Source: a virus. Taken from it: a stretch of 40,509 bases of DNA. The stretch is taken from positions 1-40,509 of IMG/VR virus record IMGVR_UViG_3300032322_000426. One strand, given 5' to 3'. Position numbers and translations under genes: made by a program. Position 1 is the stretch's first letter; each line of letters opens with the position of its first letter. Under the pieces are notes generated by a model. That model was not told where the DNA came from, did no database searches, and saw only the letters and a program-made list of their open reading frames with translations. Below are positions 3,240-38,629 of this stretch, one piece after another.

Positions 3240-3714
3240 TGTCGAAGTTGATTCTGGCATAGACCAGATTGCAATTAACTACGACTCTCCGATTGACATA
3301 ATCTCCATAGATTCAGTAGATGGAATAGATCAGATAACACTAGATCTTCAATCAGAAATAGACTCTATAGATGTTAATTTTTCCCAGGACATAGATATAA
3401 TAACAGTCGAAGAGGCTGTTCCAAATATCCAAGTTATAGAGATTGGTACAGTCTTTTCTGCTGTAGGTTCTGTGAACTCTCTTTCAGGGGATGTCGTATT
3501 AACATACATTGTTACGTTAACATATGTCTCACCAGTAAGTGGGGTTTATACATACACAGTAACACACAACCTGGGCTACGAAAACCCAATAGTCATGGTG
3601 TATAATACAGATAATGAAACAGTGATTGTGGAGCACGATGCGATAGATTCAAACACTATTGAAATTCGCTCTCAGTCAAACATGAATAACTTTAAGGTAG
3701 TGGTGCAAAGATGA
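3220..3714 (+). CDS. Putative tail-fibre-type structural protein with acidic Ile-Asp repeats
   Basis: This is a 164-residue protein starting at ATG 3220 (20-bp overlap with the previous gene); an in-frame TTG at 3199 is less likely. The first 70 residues are an irregular repeat alternating Ile with Asp/Ser (for example IDQIAINYDSPIDIISIDS), strongly acidic and predicted to be beta-rich. A SVNSLSGDVVLT segment follows near residue 87. The C-terminal 60 residues (VTHNLGYENPIVMVYN, then NNFKVVV) resemble the small beta-sandwich end domain of many phage fibre and decoration proteins. A surface or tail-fibre role is inferred from this pattern. No enzyme motif is visible. Confidence 0.6.
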   Translation: MSDPQIDVEVDSGIDQIAINYDSPIDIISIDSVDGIDQITLDLQSEIDSIDVNFSQDIDIITVEEAVPNIQVIEIGTVFSAVGSVNSLSGDVVLTYIVTLTYVSPVSGVYTYTVTHNLGYENPIVMVYNTDNETVIVEHDAIDSNTIEIRSQSNMNNFKVVVQR

Positions 3715-4049
3715 GCAATCCAGCATTTTCTTCATTCAAGTTGTGGAAGGGCGATACCCTCCGTTTTAATATGGCTTTGAAGGCTTCTGGAAGCGCCTAT
3801 GCAATTCCTGCTGGCACAACTTTTAGTGCTGCTGTTAAGGAGAAAAATACTCCAAGTGCGTATGACATGACAACAGATATTCTATCTGCCAGCGCGGGGT
3901 CAGTAAGAGTAACCCTCTCAGCATCAACGTCTGCTCTACTTTCTGCAAAAAAGAATTGGATATATGATGTTCAGATGAGAGACTCTGCATCAGTAGTCAC
4001 TACTCTTCTTTATGGAAATATTTTCGTTAACGATGAAGTAGCGACTTAA
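3711..4049 (+). CDS. Small beta-rich structural protein, BppU-N-like
   Basis: This is a 112-residue protein whose ATG overlaps the previous stop as ATGA. It begins with FKLWKGDTLRFNMALKASG and continues through an IPAGTTFSAAVKEK segment to a C-terminal ILYGNIFV-like strand (LLYGNIFVNDEVAT). The K-G-D-T opening, followed by alternating strands with a turn before an F-x-A-x-V-x-x-K strand, resembles the N-terminal Ig-like domain of baseplate upper proteins and related virion proteins. It probably pairs with the upstream gene in one virion substructure. The similarity is by pattern only. Confidence 0.6.
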   Translation: MSNPAFSSFKLWKGDTLRFNMALKASGSAYAIPAGTTFSAAVKEKNTPSAYDMTTDILSASAGSVRVTLSASTSALLSAKKNWIYDVQMRDSASVVTTLLYGNIFVNDEVAT

Positions 4050-4239
4050 TCTTTTCTATCTGATTAATTCCCAAATATGATTTTGTGTCACACGATAAAC
4101 ACCAGAAACATGCGTTACCATCTTGATCTACCCAAGGAACCATATTGCCATCGTTTTCATCAATTGGGCAGGGTAGAGGAGGAGCAACACCGATCTCTGA
4201 AAGTTTGTGATACTTGTGTAACTCTTGAATAGTTATCAT
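4027..4239 (-). CDS. Small zinc-ribbon-like protein on the opposite strand
   Basis: This is a 70-residue protein read against the surrounding late genes. It has one early cysteine in PLPCPIDE, a WVDQDGNAC strand-turn, and a CFWCLSC cluster; together these make a plausible four-cysteine zinc site. The N-terminus is helical (MITIQELHKYHKLSE). The ATG lies inside a perfect 11-bp inverted repeat (4229-4251). No ribosome binding site precedes it, but TATAGT (RC of 4247-4252) ends about 7 nt before the start codon, so a leaderless transcript is possible. It converges on, and overlaps, the end of the gene at 3711-4049 by 23 bp. It may be a small regulator; its function is unknown. Confidence 0.65.
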   Translation of the reverse strand: MITIQELHKYHKLSEIGVAPPLPCPIDENDGNMVPWVDQDGNACFWCLSCDTKSYLGINQIEKIKSLLHR

Positions 4240-4251
4240 GATGATAACTAT
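4229..4251. promoter_or_regulatory. Perfect palindrome over a start codon, possible operator
   Basis: Two 11-nt arms, ATAGTTATCAT (4229-4239) and ATGATAACTAT (4241-4251), are exact reverse complements separated by a single G. The left arm contains the start codon of the minus-strand zinc-ribbon gene. The repeat lies about 15 bp upstream of a candidate plus-strand promoter for the RNR gene. Its symmetry and size fit a dimeric repressor site acting on either or both genes; a DNA or RNA hairpin is the alternative. Confidence 0.5.
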
Positions 4252-4266
4252 ATCACAGCATATTTT

Positions 4267-4296
4267 TTGAACTTTGAAAGCCGTTTACGCTACAAT
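4267..4296 (+). promoter_or_regulatory. Putative promoter of the RNR gene
   Basis: TTGAAC (4267-4272) and TACAAT (4291-4296) are separated by 18 nt, the best -35/-10 pair seen in the window. Transcription would start near 4303, at the foot of the hairpin at 4303-4319, and give a leader of about 42 nt before the RNR ATG. Confidence 0.45.
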
Positions 4297-4302
4297 AAAT
4301 CT

Positions 4303-4319
4303 TACCGCATTTTGCGGTA
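4303..4319 (+). terminator. Hairpin with T-rich tail in the RNR leader
   Basis: TACCGCA (4303-4309) and TGCGGTA (4313-4319) form a perfect 7-bp stem with a TTT loop, followed by TTTTATTTAT. This is the layout of a short intrinsic terminator. It sits between the candidate promoter and the RNR ribosome site. It may stop read-through from upstream genes, act as an attenuator, or protect the 5' end of the RNR mRNA. Confidence 0.5.
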
Positions 4320-4344
4320 TTTTATTTATGATGGAGAGATCAAT

Positions 4345-6270
4345 ATGACAGTTTCCTTGCCTACAGCGTACCAGCAGGTTATTCACAAGACAAGATATGC
4401 AAGATGGATTGAAGAAGAAAACCGCAGGGAGGACTGGCATGAAACTGTTGGACGATATATAAACTATATTTATGACAGCCTAGAAAAATATAACAATTTC
4501 ACAATCTCTCCAGAAGTTTTTCAAGATATCCATAGCGCAATTCTAAGAACAGAAGTTATGCCATCAATGCGCGGTCTTATGACTGCTGGCCCTGCGCTAG
4601 AAAGAGATAATACCTGTATCTACAACTGTTCCTACCTCCCAGTCGATTCACTTAGGTCATTCGATGAAGCGATGTACATTCTTATGTGTGGAACAGGAGT
4701 TGGATATTCAGTAGAATCAAAATATGTTAATCAACTTCCCGTTATTAACGAGCACTTTGAAATTTCACCAACAACCATAGTTGTCGATGATTCAAAGGCT
4801 GGTTGGGCAAAGGCCCTTAGAGAGTTGATTGCGCTTCTTTATCAGGGACAGGTTCCTAGTTGGGACCTGTCTGCTGTTAGACCAGCAGGCGCAAGACTTA
4901 AGACTTTCGGTGGCAGGGCATCTGGCCCTGACCCCCTTGATAGACTATTCAGGTTTACGGTTGAAACTATAAGATCTGCGTCTGGACGTAAGTTAACGCC
5001 ATTAGAGGCACACGACATTATGTGCAAGATCGCAGAGGTTGTAGTTGTTGGTGGAGTGCGTAGATCAGCAATGATCTCCCTGTCTGACCTAGAAGACCGT
5101 AACATGGCTGCGGCGAAGGCAGGTTCTTGGTGGGAATATAATTCTCAAAGAGCACTCGCCAATAACTCAGCCGTATATGAAAAAAGACCAAGTATGGAAG
5201 TTTTCATGGCAGAGTGGAAGTCTTTGTACGATTCTAAGAGTGGTGAGCGCGGAATATTCTCTAGAGCAGCCGCACAGAAGGTGGCATCAAAGAATGGCCG
5301 TCGTGAACCAGGACATGAGTTTGGAACTAACCCATGTAGTGAAATTATTCTTCGTCCATACCAGTTCTGTAATCTGACAGAGGTTGTAGTTAGAGAAGGC
5401 GACACACTAGAAGACCTACTCAACAAGGTTCGCATAGCCACAATTCTTGGAACTCTACAGTCAACATTTACTAGATTTAAGTATCTTCGTAAGATATGGC
5501 AGAAGAACTCAGAAGAAGAAAGACTACTTGGCGTATCCCTCACTGGACAACTTGGGCATCCAGTTCTTAATGGCTCACAAGGATTAGATAAACTTGAGGA
5601 ATGGCTAACAGCAATGCGACTACAGGCCGTTGAAACAAATAAGGAATATGCATCAGCATTAGGAATTAATCAGTCAACAGCAATTACATGTGTTAAGCCA
5701 TCTGGCACGGTATCTCAACTAGTCAACTGCTCTAGCGGAATGCACACATGGCATAGTGAATTTTATGCTAGAACTATCCGTGCAGACAATAAAGATCCAG
5801 TTACAACATTTCTAAAAGAGGCTGGTGTTATTGGAGAGCCAGACGTAATGAAGCCAAATGACACTACCGTATTTACATTTCCAATTAAAGCGCCTAGCAA
5901 TGCCTTAACTAGAAAAGATGTCGGAGCCATTCAGCATCTAGAACTATGGCTGGCATATCAAAGACATTGGACGGAGCACAAGCCATCTATTACCGTGTCT
6001 GTAAAAGAAGATGAATGGATGGACGTTGGTGCTTGGGTGTACACACATATAGATGAACTTTCAGGAATCTCATTCCTCCCCTATTCTGATCACACATACC
6101 AGCAAGCCCCATATCAGGAAATCTCTGAAATGGAGTATAATGAGATATTAGACAAGACTCCAAAAACACTTGACTGGAACTGGTTAACGTATTATGAAAC
6201 ATCTGATGGCACAACCGGAAGCCAGGAACTCGCATGTGTATCAGGGGCTTGTGACATAACTCAAGTATAA
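4345..6270 (+). CDS. nrdJ: Class II (adenosylcobalamin-dependent) ribonucleoside-triphosphate reductase
   Basis: This enzyme reduces ribonucleotides to deoxyribonucleotides using adenosylcobalamin as radical source, supplying DNA precursors. The residues match the monomeric RTPR type known from Lactobacillus leichmannii: NPCSE with the thiyl-radical Cys331 and Glu333, the disulfide partner C342 exactly 11 residues later (as in C408/C419), its mate C95 in YNCSYLPVDS, and a C-terminal redox pair C631/C636 in CVSGAC. VRPAGARLKTFGGRASG and GGVRRSAMISL are also typical. At 641 residues it is about 100 shorter than the Lactobacillus enzyme, with roughly 50 missing between the first Cys and the radical Cys. 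The start is ATG 4345 after GGAGAG; an upstream in-frame TTG at 4225 is rejected because it would read through the leader hairpin. Confidence 0.95.
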   Translation: MTVSLPTAYQQVIHKTRYARWIEEENRREDWHETVGRYINYIYDSLEKYNNFTISPEVFQDIHSAILRTEVMPSMRGLMTAGPALERDNTCIYNCSYLPVDSLRSFDEAMYILMCGTGVGYSVESKYVNQLPVINEHFEISPTTIVVDDSKAGWAKALRELIALLYQGQVPSWDLSAVRPAGARLKTFGGRASGPDPLDRLFRFTVETIRSASGRKLTPLEAHDIMCKIAEVVVVGGVRRSAMISLSDLEDRNMAAAKAGSWWEYNSQRALANNSAVYEKRPSMEVFMAEWKSLYDSKSGERGIFSRAAAQKVASKNGRREPGHEFGTNPCSEIILRPYQFCNLTEVVVREGDTLEDLLNKVRIATILGTLQSTFTRFKYLRKIWQKNSEEERLLGVSLTGQLGHPVLNGSQGLDKLEEWLTAMRLQAVETNKEYASALGINQSTAITCVKPSGTVSQLVNCSSGMHTWHSEFYARTIRADNKDPVTTFLKEAGVIGEPDVMKPNDTTVFTFPIKAPSNALTRKDVGAIQHLELWLAYQRHWTEHKPSITVSVKEDEWMDVGAWVYTHIDELSGISFLPYSDHTYQQAPYQEISEMEYNEILDKTPKTLDWNWLTYYETSDGTTGSQELACVSGACDITQV

Positions 6271-10451: not shown

Positions 10452-10784
10452 ATGAATAAGCCAAAATTATCTGTAGTAGAGGACAAATCAAGATACGGAA
10501 TATACGTTTGGAGACTTCCAGACGGCTCTATCTTTGCTGATGAGGACAGAAATGTTCTTAACATACCAGCCGAACGCGGAGATATTACCAAAATGGTAGA
10601 AATAAAAAAGGCCGCATCTCATTATGGACAACCAGATGGTGAAGCAGTCTTTATTGCAGGCGTCGGTAGAGTGACTGAAGAAGAATATCAGGAAGATCTA
10701 GAGAGAATGAATAGTGGACTGCTTACATTTGGAGATACAGGAGCGTGGAAAGATGCAGCAAGAGCGAGAAGAAGCCTTAGTTGA
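10452..10784 (+). CDS. Small protein preceding the portal, unknown function
   Basis: This is a 110-residue soluble protein. The N-terminal half has a strand pattern (RYGIYVWRLPDGSIFADEDRN) and an NIPAERGDITKMVEIKKAA helix. The C-terminal half contains GRVTEEEYQEDLERMNSGLL and a basic tail. It sits directly upstream of the portal gene, overlapping it by 32 bp, which suggests a head-related role. The ATG at 10452 has no clear ribosome binding site; a CATAAT hexamer (10430-10435) lies 16 nt upstream, so the mRNA leader may be very short. No enzymatic motif is seen. Confidence 0.7.
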   Translation: MNKPKLSVVEDKSRYGIYVWRLPDGSIFADEDRNVLNIPAERGDITKMVEIKKAASHYGQPDGEAVFIAGVGRVTEEEYQEDLERMNSGLLTFGDTGAWKDAARARRSLS

Positions 10785-19155: not shown

Positions 19156-19170
19156 AATAACTTAATATAT

Positions 19171-38178: not shown

Positions 38179-38629
38179 CGTTAAGTATGTTATGGTGGAG
38201 TCCGACCACCCGAAATCTATCGACGGCAAATACTATGAACACATCCTTGTTGCAGAAAAACATTTGAATAGAATGCTTTTTGATAGGGAAACAGTTCATC
38301 ATATAAATGAAATAAGATCCGACAACAGAATAGAAAATCTTTTCGTGTGTAGCAGAACGCAGCACGATAAAGCACATGGAATGAAGACGGTATCACGATA
38401 CCGTCTTTTTCCACATTGGTTATCAAAGAAATGTAAGAAGTGTCATGTGGTATTCTATGCACCACCACATGTTATAAAGAATAGATCACGGTGTAGTGTA
38501 AACTGCAAGCCAGTAAGAGTTGACAAACAGTGTCATGGTTGTGGTAACATCTTTACTGTGCCGATTTATACCCAAGCACAACGAACATTCTGCTCTAGAA
38601 GGTGCAGAAGAAAGGTTGATCGTGAATAA
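38150..38629 (+). CDS. HNH homing-type endonuclease with C-terminal zinc knuckles
   Basis: This is a 159-residue protein from TTG 38150; ATG 38192 is the main alternative, and neither has a good ribosome site. Residues 15-77 are an HNH_3-type domain: DHPKSIDGKYYEHILVAEKH, then ETVHHINEIRSDNRIENLFV with the His-His-Asn catalytic core, and RTQHDKAHG. After residue 90 come two cysteine knuckle pairs (CKKC with CSVNC, and CHGC with FCSRRC) that should bind zinc and DNA. Genes of this kind are often mobile. It lies between the tail module and the phosphoesterase, overlapping both (29 bp and 8 bp). A perfect terminator-like hairpin lies inside the gene between the two domains. Confidence 0.85.
   Translation: MPSEKVRQRSVKYVMVESDHPKSIDGKYYEHILVAEKHLNRMLFDRETVHHINEIRSDNRIENLFVCSRTQHDKAHGMKTVSRYRLFPHWLSKKCKKCHVVFYAPPHVIKNRSRCSVNCKPVRVDKQCHGCGNIFTVPIYTQAQRTFCSRRCRRKVDRE
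38385..38410 (+). terminator. Terminator-like hairpin inside the HNH gene
   Basis: AGACGGTAT (38385-38393) pairs perfectly with ATACCGTCT (38398-38406) around the loop CACG, followed by a run of T to 38410. This is a classical intrinsic terminator in form. It lies in the coding sequence for MKTVSRYRLFP, between nuclease and zinc-knuckle parts. Confidence 0.6.

Follow-up and report, generated by a model that had tools for sequence, protein, structure and literature searches.

Is a perfect palindrome that covers the start codon of a small viral gene the switch of that gene, and how is such a gene started when it faces away from a ribonucleotide reductase (RNR) gene? These questions are raised by a virus record that constitutes the window, that is, the whole 40.5 kb stretch of DNA analysed here (40,509 nucleotides), in which an ORF of 70 codons with an ATG start lies on the minus strand (Table 1). 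The original prediction described this ORF as a gene for a zinc protein that starts without a leader inside an 11+1+11 inverted repeat, and took the arrangement for a possibly self-regulated switch that could control nucleotide synthesis. The layout is borne out: the repeat is perfect and lies just upstream of the RNR promoter candidate (4267-4296), and the ORF overlaps the 3' end of its convergent neighbour by 23 nt. The ORF is not the single gene on the opposite strand, as had been claimed, since an HNH-type ORF, a 71-aa ORF and thyX (93-1342) are also encoded by the minus strand of the window.

Table 1 Features of the zinc gene–RNR region in the window
Feature	Position	Strand	Remarks
Convergent 112-aa neighbour ORF	3711..4049	+	phrog_1084, E=1.1e-14, unknown function
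Gene of zinc-ribbon-like protein, 70 aa, predicted leaderless	4027..4239	-	Stop codon 4027-4029; ORF list, dN/dS, conserved Cys, AlphaFold2
Perfect 11+1+11 palindrome across -10, spacer and start codon	4229..4251	.	Single copy, lineage-specific
Extended -10 element TGA-TATAGT of zinc gene	4247..4255	-	7 nt before ATG
-35 TTGAAC of RNR promoter	4267..4272	+	Consensus
-10 TACAAT of RNR promoter	4291..4296	+	Consensus
Stem-loop TACCGCA-TTT-TGCGGTA, predicted 5' end of RNR mRNA	4303..4319	+	
Class II (B12-type) ribonucleotide reductase	4345..6270	+	SD GGAG 4333-4336

The RNR gene is identified by PHROGs (phrog_367, E=1.2e-187) and by the Pfam families PF02867, PF17975 and PF21995. A start of RNR at TTG 4225, from which a 681-aa ORF would run through the palindrome, is rejected because in the related locus L004 the RNR ORF (645 aa) has no start before an ATG that lies beyond the intergenic region and because the ATG at 4345 in the window has an SD sequence. 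Streptomyces phages of the Stanwilliamsviridae appear to be distant kin of the window, judging by short matches in the vicinity of the capsid gene and by the RNR protein, with an identity of about 64%; the host is presumably an actinobacterium.

The 70-codon ORF is a genuine gene with homologues in Streptomyces Stanwilliamsviridae phages, where annotation often omits it. When the window protein was used as query, four loci were matched, with identities of 97 and 74%. When the best 80 of at least 599 loci from an RNR scan were taken, a homologue was present in 60 at E<0.05, in every case on the strand opposite RNR. The range L015-L038 has a homologue in 22 of its 24 loci, and each of the two misses, L020 and L031, has less than 100 bases upstream of its RNR match. 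A scan with the protein alignment A4, in which RNR was not used, yielded 45 viral loci; it required the start motif M[IL]TIQE[LAI]H and sampled only the window's own clade. No relative was found when genome_contigs were scanned by the start motif. The dN/dS ratio is 0.16-0.40 in six of seven pairs of relatives, those with unsaturated dS, synonymous sites being saturated in the pair of the window and L003, and the ORF is thus under purifying selection. In a phage collection, the protein has matches in 59 records at E<=1; with the threshold loosened to E<=10 there are 107, of which 102 are Streptomyces phages. It is highly improbable that the ORF is no gene, being an antisense stretch or having a start led from further upstream, given the homologues in the 45 viral loci, the 60 RNR loci and the 59 phage records, the dN/dS values, a confident structure model and the annotation of the ORF in some phage records, even though no product is named and a CDS is absent at the match in six annotated Streptomyces phage records examined.

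Among the 60 rows listed of matches at E<=10, 37 have no annotated feature beneath the match. In the Streptomyces phages, a leaderless homologue occupies an unannotated gap at 6504-6701 of L010 and at the equivalent places of L012, L013, L108, L109 and L111, and this gap is flanked by two annotated ORFs of the same strand. In Streptomyces phage Gilson (L110, 386-598), a zinc-ribbon-like homologue is annotated as 'VbhA-like antitoxin', a name for which no support was found in searches with the family. At L015 (3356-3568), the zinc protein is 61% identical to that of the window and the promoter region 92-93% identical, a contrast that may reflect either rapid divergence of the protein or recombination with a junction close to the start codon.

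The AlphaFold2 model of the 70-aa protein consists of a helix, a beta hairpin and a helix, with strands 34-37 and 43-46 set between the helices (mean pLDDT 92.7). Cysteine columns C24, C47 and C50 are invariant across 49 aligned sequences, the second knuckle is longer in L070, and the fourth metal ligand varies among homologues; the equivalent of C50, the last Cys of the second knuckle, is missing in 4 of 13 Streptomyces-phage homologues. Because of the conserved Cys residues and the confident zinc-ribbon-like model, the product is likely to be a zinc protein, in agreement with the original prediction. Pfam gives no domain for it at E up to 1 and weak scattered matches for the 49 homologues, of which at most five match any one family, the DnaG zinc ribbon; matches in PHROGs are weak only. 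Foldseek finds no match in the PDB at E<=0.001 and three in BFVD at the same threshold, all uncharacterised phage proteins. The top structural match is the N-terminal zinc ribbon of Rpb9/C11 (Z 3.7, rmsd 2.5, 43 residues), where a Z under 8 may mean merely a common arrangement, and a profile match to Rpb9 is also weak (E=0.16). The distant resemblance is to zinc ribbons, that of Rpb9 among them, and is far too weak for a claim of kinship.

The zinc gene has the geometry of a leaderless gene. As predicted, its ATG is preceded by a TATAGT box (4252-4247 on the minus strand) and by no SD-like 4-mer. According to PMC3160421, leaderless genes, which are common in Actinobacteria, bear as their signature a TANNNT box some 12 bp ahead of the start codon; the zinc gene resembles these genes in having TANNNT 6-7 nt before ATG and no SD sequence, and differs in being a phage gene whose promoter overlaps a divergent RNR promoter. 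TANNNT precedes ATG in all 45 clade loci, by 6 nt in 37 and by 7 nt in 8. In a set of 17 loci that includes the window, it is found at 6 or 7 nt in 17/17, no other distance between 0 and 39 has it in more than 3/17, and an SD-like 4-mer is seen in 0/17; both sets contain near-identical loci. At 26 other gene starts of the window, TANNNT occurs at 5-8 nt in three and an SD-like 4-mer is absent in ten, so the window by itself gives no proof and the comparison across relatives carries the leaderless claim. With TANNNT at 6 or 7 nt in 45/45 loci and RNR placed head-to-head, a leaderless start of the zinc gene is strongly supported in this clade by sequence comparison.

The leaderless pattern extends in part to the Streptomyces phages. 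TGATA(G/C)ACT-N6-ATG is present in 7 of 13 loci, six of which have no annotated CDS at the match, the seventh record being wholly unannotated; a leaderless -10 is missing in the other six. Among these six are the phages BillNye (L011, 4986-4989) and Circinus, in which the start of the homologue lies two nucleotides past a tRNA-Thr gene; in BillNye, tRNA processing could yield a near-leaderless mRNA. Some distant homologues, for example L065, L087 and L090, have SD-like leaders, and leaderlessness is thus not universal in the family. The leaderless start suggests why annotation misses the zinc gene in many Streptomyces phages. A second possible leaderless start, TGC-TAACAT-N6-ATG, is seen at 10452 on the plus strand of the window.

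RNR stands head-to-head with the zinc gene in 45/45 loci, with a gap of 96-126 bp. Among 32 distinct intergenic sequences, 14 have TTGACC-N17-TACAAT on the RNR side, where the assignment of a sigma70-type promoter follows the consensus. The automatic choice for L019, L021 and L022 was poor at first and gave way to a TA[CG]AAT rule. A stem-loop starts 6-11 bases past the -10. A start-proximal stem-loop is significant at P<=0.05 in 29 of the 32 sequences by mononucleotide shuffles and a custom scoring rule, the exceptions being L119, L120 and L152, and its stem sequence varies between lineages. No other place in the window combines a promoter with a start-proximal hairpin nearly as strongly as the RNR leader, the one weaker candidate being at 19170; Rfam, with gathering thresholds applied, gave 0 matches in the window. 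The stem-loop may stabilise the mRNA or attenuate transcription. A plain intrinsic terminator is rejected because the hairpin sits at the predicted transcript start, which leaves room for attenuation.

The distance from the zinc ATG to the RNR -10 is 41-44 bp in 9 of the 32 sequences, 50-52 bp in 22 and 62 bp in one, with none between. These classes are about one helical turn apart, and five changes of class are reconstructed on the RNR tree by Fitch parsimony; they suggest helical phasing, in a post hoc reading of few events. It is a doubtful further step to regard the pair as a phase-locked two-way valve of a family of tailed actinobacterial phages, with a leaderless zinc-ribbon regulator to the left and RNR to the right, spacing that changes by whole turns only, and, in the window lineage, feedback through a palindromic operator at the regulator's own start codon. 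Of 18 loci, 15 have an automatic promoter call that is credible, and in these the predicted start sites lie 54-75 bp from each other. Taken with the size of the RNA polymerase footprint, on which the idea of competition is based, these distances indicate divergent promoters with overlapping polymerase sites, so competition between them would be expected. Adjacency to RNR is not general: Streptomyces phage Yaboi keeps the zinc gene, and about 3.7 kb and other genes separate it from RNR.

These features can be combined in one mechanism. Leftward transcription would start from a promoter that has an extended -10 and lacks a recognisable -35, at the ATG or within about one base of it, and would produce the leaderless mRNA of the small zinc-ribbon-like gene. 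Rightward transcription from the sigma70-type promoter would produce a class II RNR mRNA that carries a 5' stem-loop followed by an SD sequence. Because the predicted start sites are only ~54-75 bp apart, two RNA polymerases would be unable to sit at once, and occupation of one promoter would suppress the other. In the window lineage, the palindrome could serve in addition as an operator for some dimeric DNA-binding protein, which when bound would block the zinc-gene promoter and so free the RNR promoter; the zinc protein itself, another phage protein and a host factor are candidates for this role. We consider it probable that overlapping divergent promoters link both genes through polymerase competition, with the lineage-specific palindrome as a possible operator, although competition, the operator role and the function of the zinc protein are parts that we infer. 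As for the predicted control of nucleotide synthesis, it is the geometry that stands, namely the divergent RNR in 45/45 loci and the overlapping promoters.

The palindrome, ATAGTTATCAT-G-ATGATAACTAT, is one of two perfect repeats in the window with arms >=11 and loops 0-8, where a mean of 0.05 is expected per window from 40 first-order Markov simulations. The other, AAGACGGTATCACGATACCGTCTT at 38384-38407, lies in what appears by eye to be an HNH endonuclease coding region. When the 30 noncoding bases before the start are shuffled in 31 loci, an arm >=11 is expected in 0.0025 loci. Pure chance is thus an unlikely source of the palindrome, although it must be borne in mind that coding sequence makes up one arm and that the -10 box lies in the other. 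Recurrence of the arm elsewhere, which the original prediction had proposed to look for, is only marginally more frequent than expected: the window contains 31 arms with <=2 mismatches as compared with 21.7 expected, a number reached by 5 of 100 shuffles. The full site is not repeated anywhere in the window, even with 3 mismatches allowed. At the same tolerance the site occurs once per record in five records, one of them 96 kb long, and is absent from two others. The exact site in viral_contigs is confined to the four contigs of the window-protein scan. A role of the palindrome as a hairpin in the zinc-gene mRNA is rejected because a leaderless transcript would contain one arm only.

Across the 45 loci, the palindrome is perfect in four (L113-L116, with two distinct sequences), decayed in three and absent in 38, in which no arm exceeds 6. 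Most relatives with the gene thus lack the palindrome, and a self-regulated switch is not supported as a general rule of this gene. In the strong form of that idea, a dimer of the zinc protein would occupy the palindrome as its own operator, repress its leaderless promoter and switch RNR on. The palindrome is suitably placed, being a perfect, single-copy repeat that overlaps the -10, the spacer and the ATG and adjoins the RNR promoter, and a zinc ribbon could bind nucleic acid. However, such self-repression is unlikely in view of the 38 loci, of the broken pairs in the decayed palindromes (one in L117/L118, the same contigs as L015/L016; two in L119, which leave a 7-bp core), of the lack of any Pfam family for the window protein and of more than weak scattered matches among its 49 homologues, and of the single site in the 96-kb record. 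No compensatory change is found in L117/L118 or L119, and the symmetry may therefore not be under selection.

The palindrome could also be incidental, the coding start (MITI) and the -10 box with its 6-nt spacer having chanced to match and then been inherited in a small clade. The independent decay of the arms in L117 and L119, and a coding half and -10 that are constrained for other reasons in 45/45 loci, agree with such an origin, while the chance expectation of 0.0025 in 31 loci weighs against it. So does L017, on the contig of L003: 14 of 15 promoter-side bases of the window are kept there, the unpaired centre being the sole change, despite diverged neighbouring sequence, with RNR third positions only 56% identical. 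This retention favours a function of the palindrome in the small clade, and the palindrome is also kept in L003/L004; an incidental palindrome is a real possibility, though not the reading that we prefer. The palindrome, perfect in the nearest lineages only, is a lineage-specific addition, which under the preferred reading of competing promoters is possibly an operator.

The element conserved in the clade is the leaderless zinc-ribbon-like gene head-to-head with RNR; the module kept beside RNR is the promoter pair, not the eye-catching palindrome. The locus makes a conserved phage gene with a predicted leaderless start accessible to testing, and cultured Stanwilliamsviridae phages carry the zinc gene, so that this start can be examined in the laboratory.

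No account of the zinc gene or of the promoter pair was found in the titles and abstract openings of literature on actinophages, leaderless genes and divergent promoters, a search that left subscription literature mostly uncovered. Comparison with known systems is nevertheless instructive. NrdR is a zinc-ribbon repressor of RNR genes, and here too a zinc-ribbon-like protein is linked to RNR. In NrdR, an ATP-cone follows the zinc ribbon, and paired NrdR-box palindromes precede the RNR promoter. The zinc protein has only 70 aa, Pfam yields nothing for it at E up to 1, hence no ATP-cone, and its structural match to NrdR is weak (Z 2.3, 40 residues, rmsd 3.9). The cI gene of phage lambda is transcribed without a leader from PRM beside PR. 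The zinc gene is likewise a phage gene, predicted to be leaderless, beside a divergent promoter; operators lie between the lambda promoters, whereas no repressor-type protein or operator array is recognised in the window. PMC4207663 describes overlapping divergent promoters, Pr and Pc, with the regulator RcoLS20 in plasmid pLS20. The two systems have in common that divergent promoters overlap, one serving a single gene and the opposite one the main operon. They differ in that no second operator was found here, that the small protein is at most a candidate regulator and that any looping would be hypothetical.
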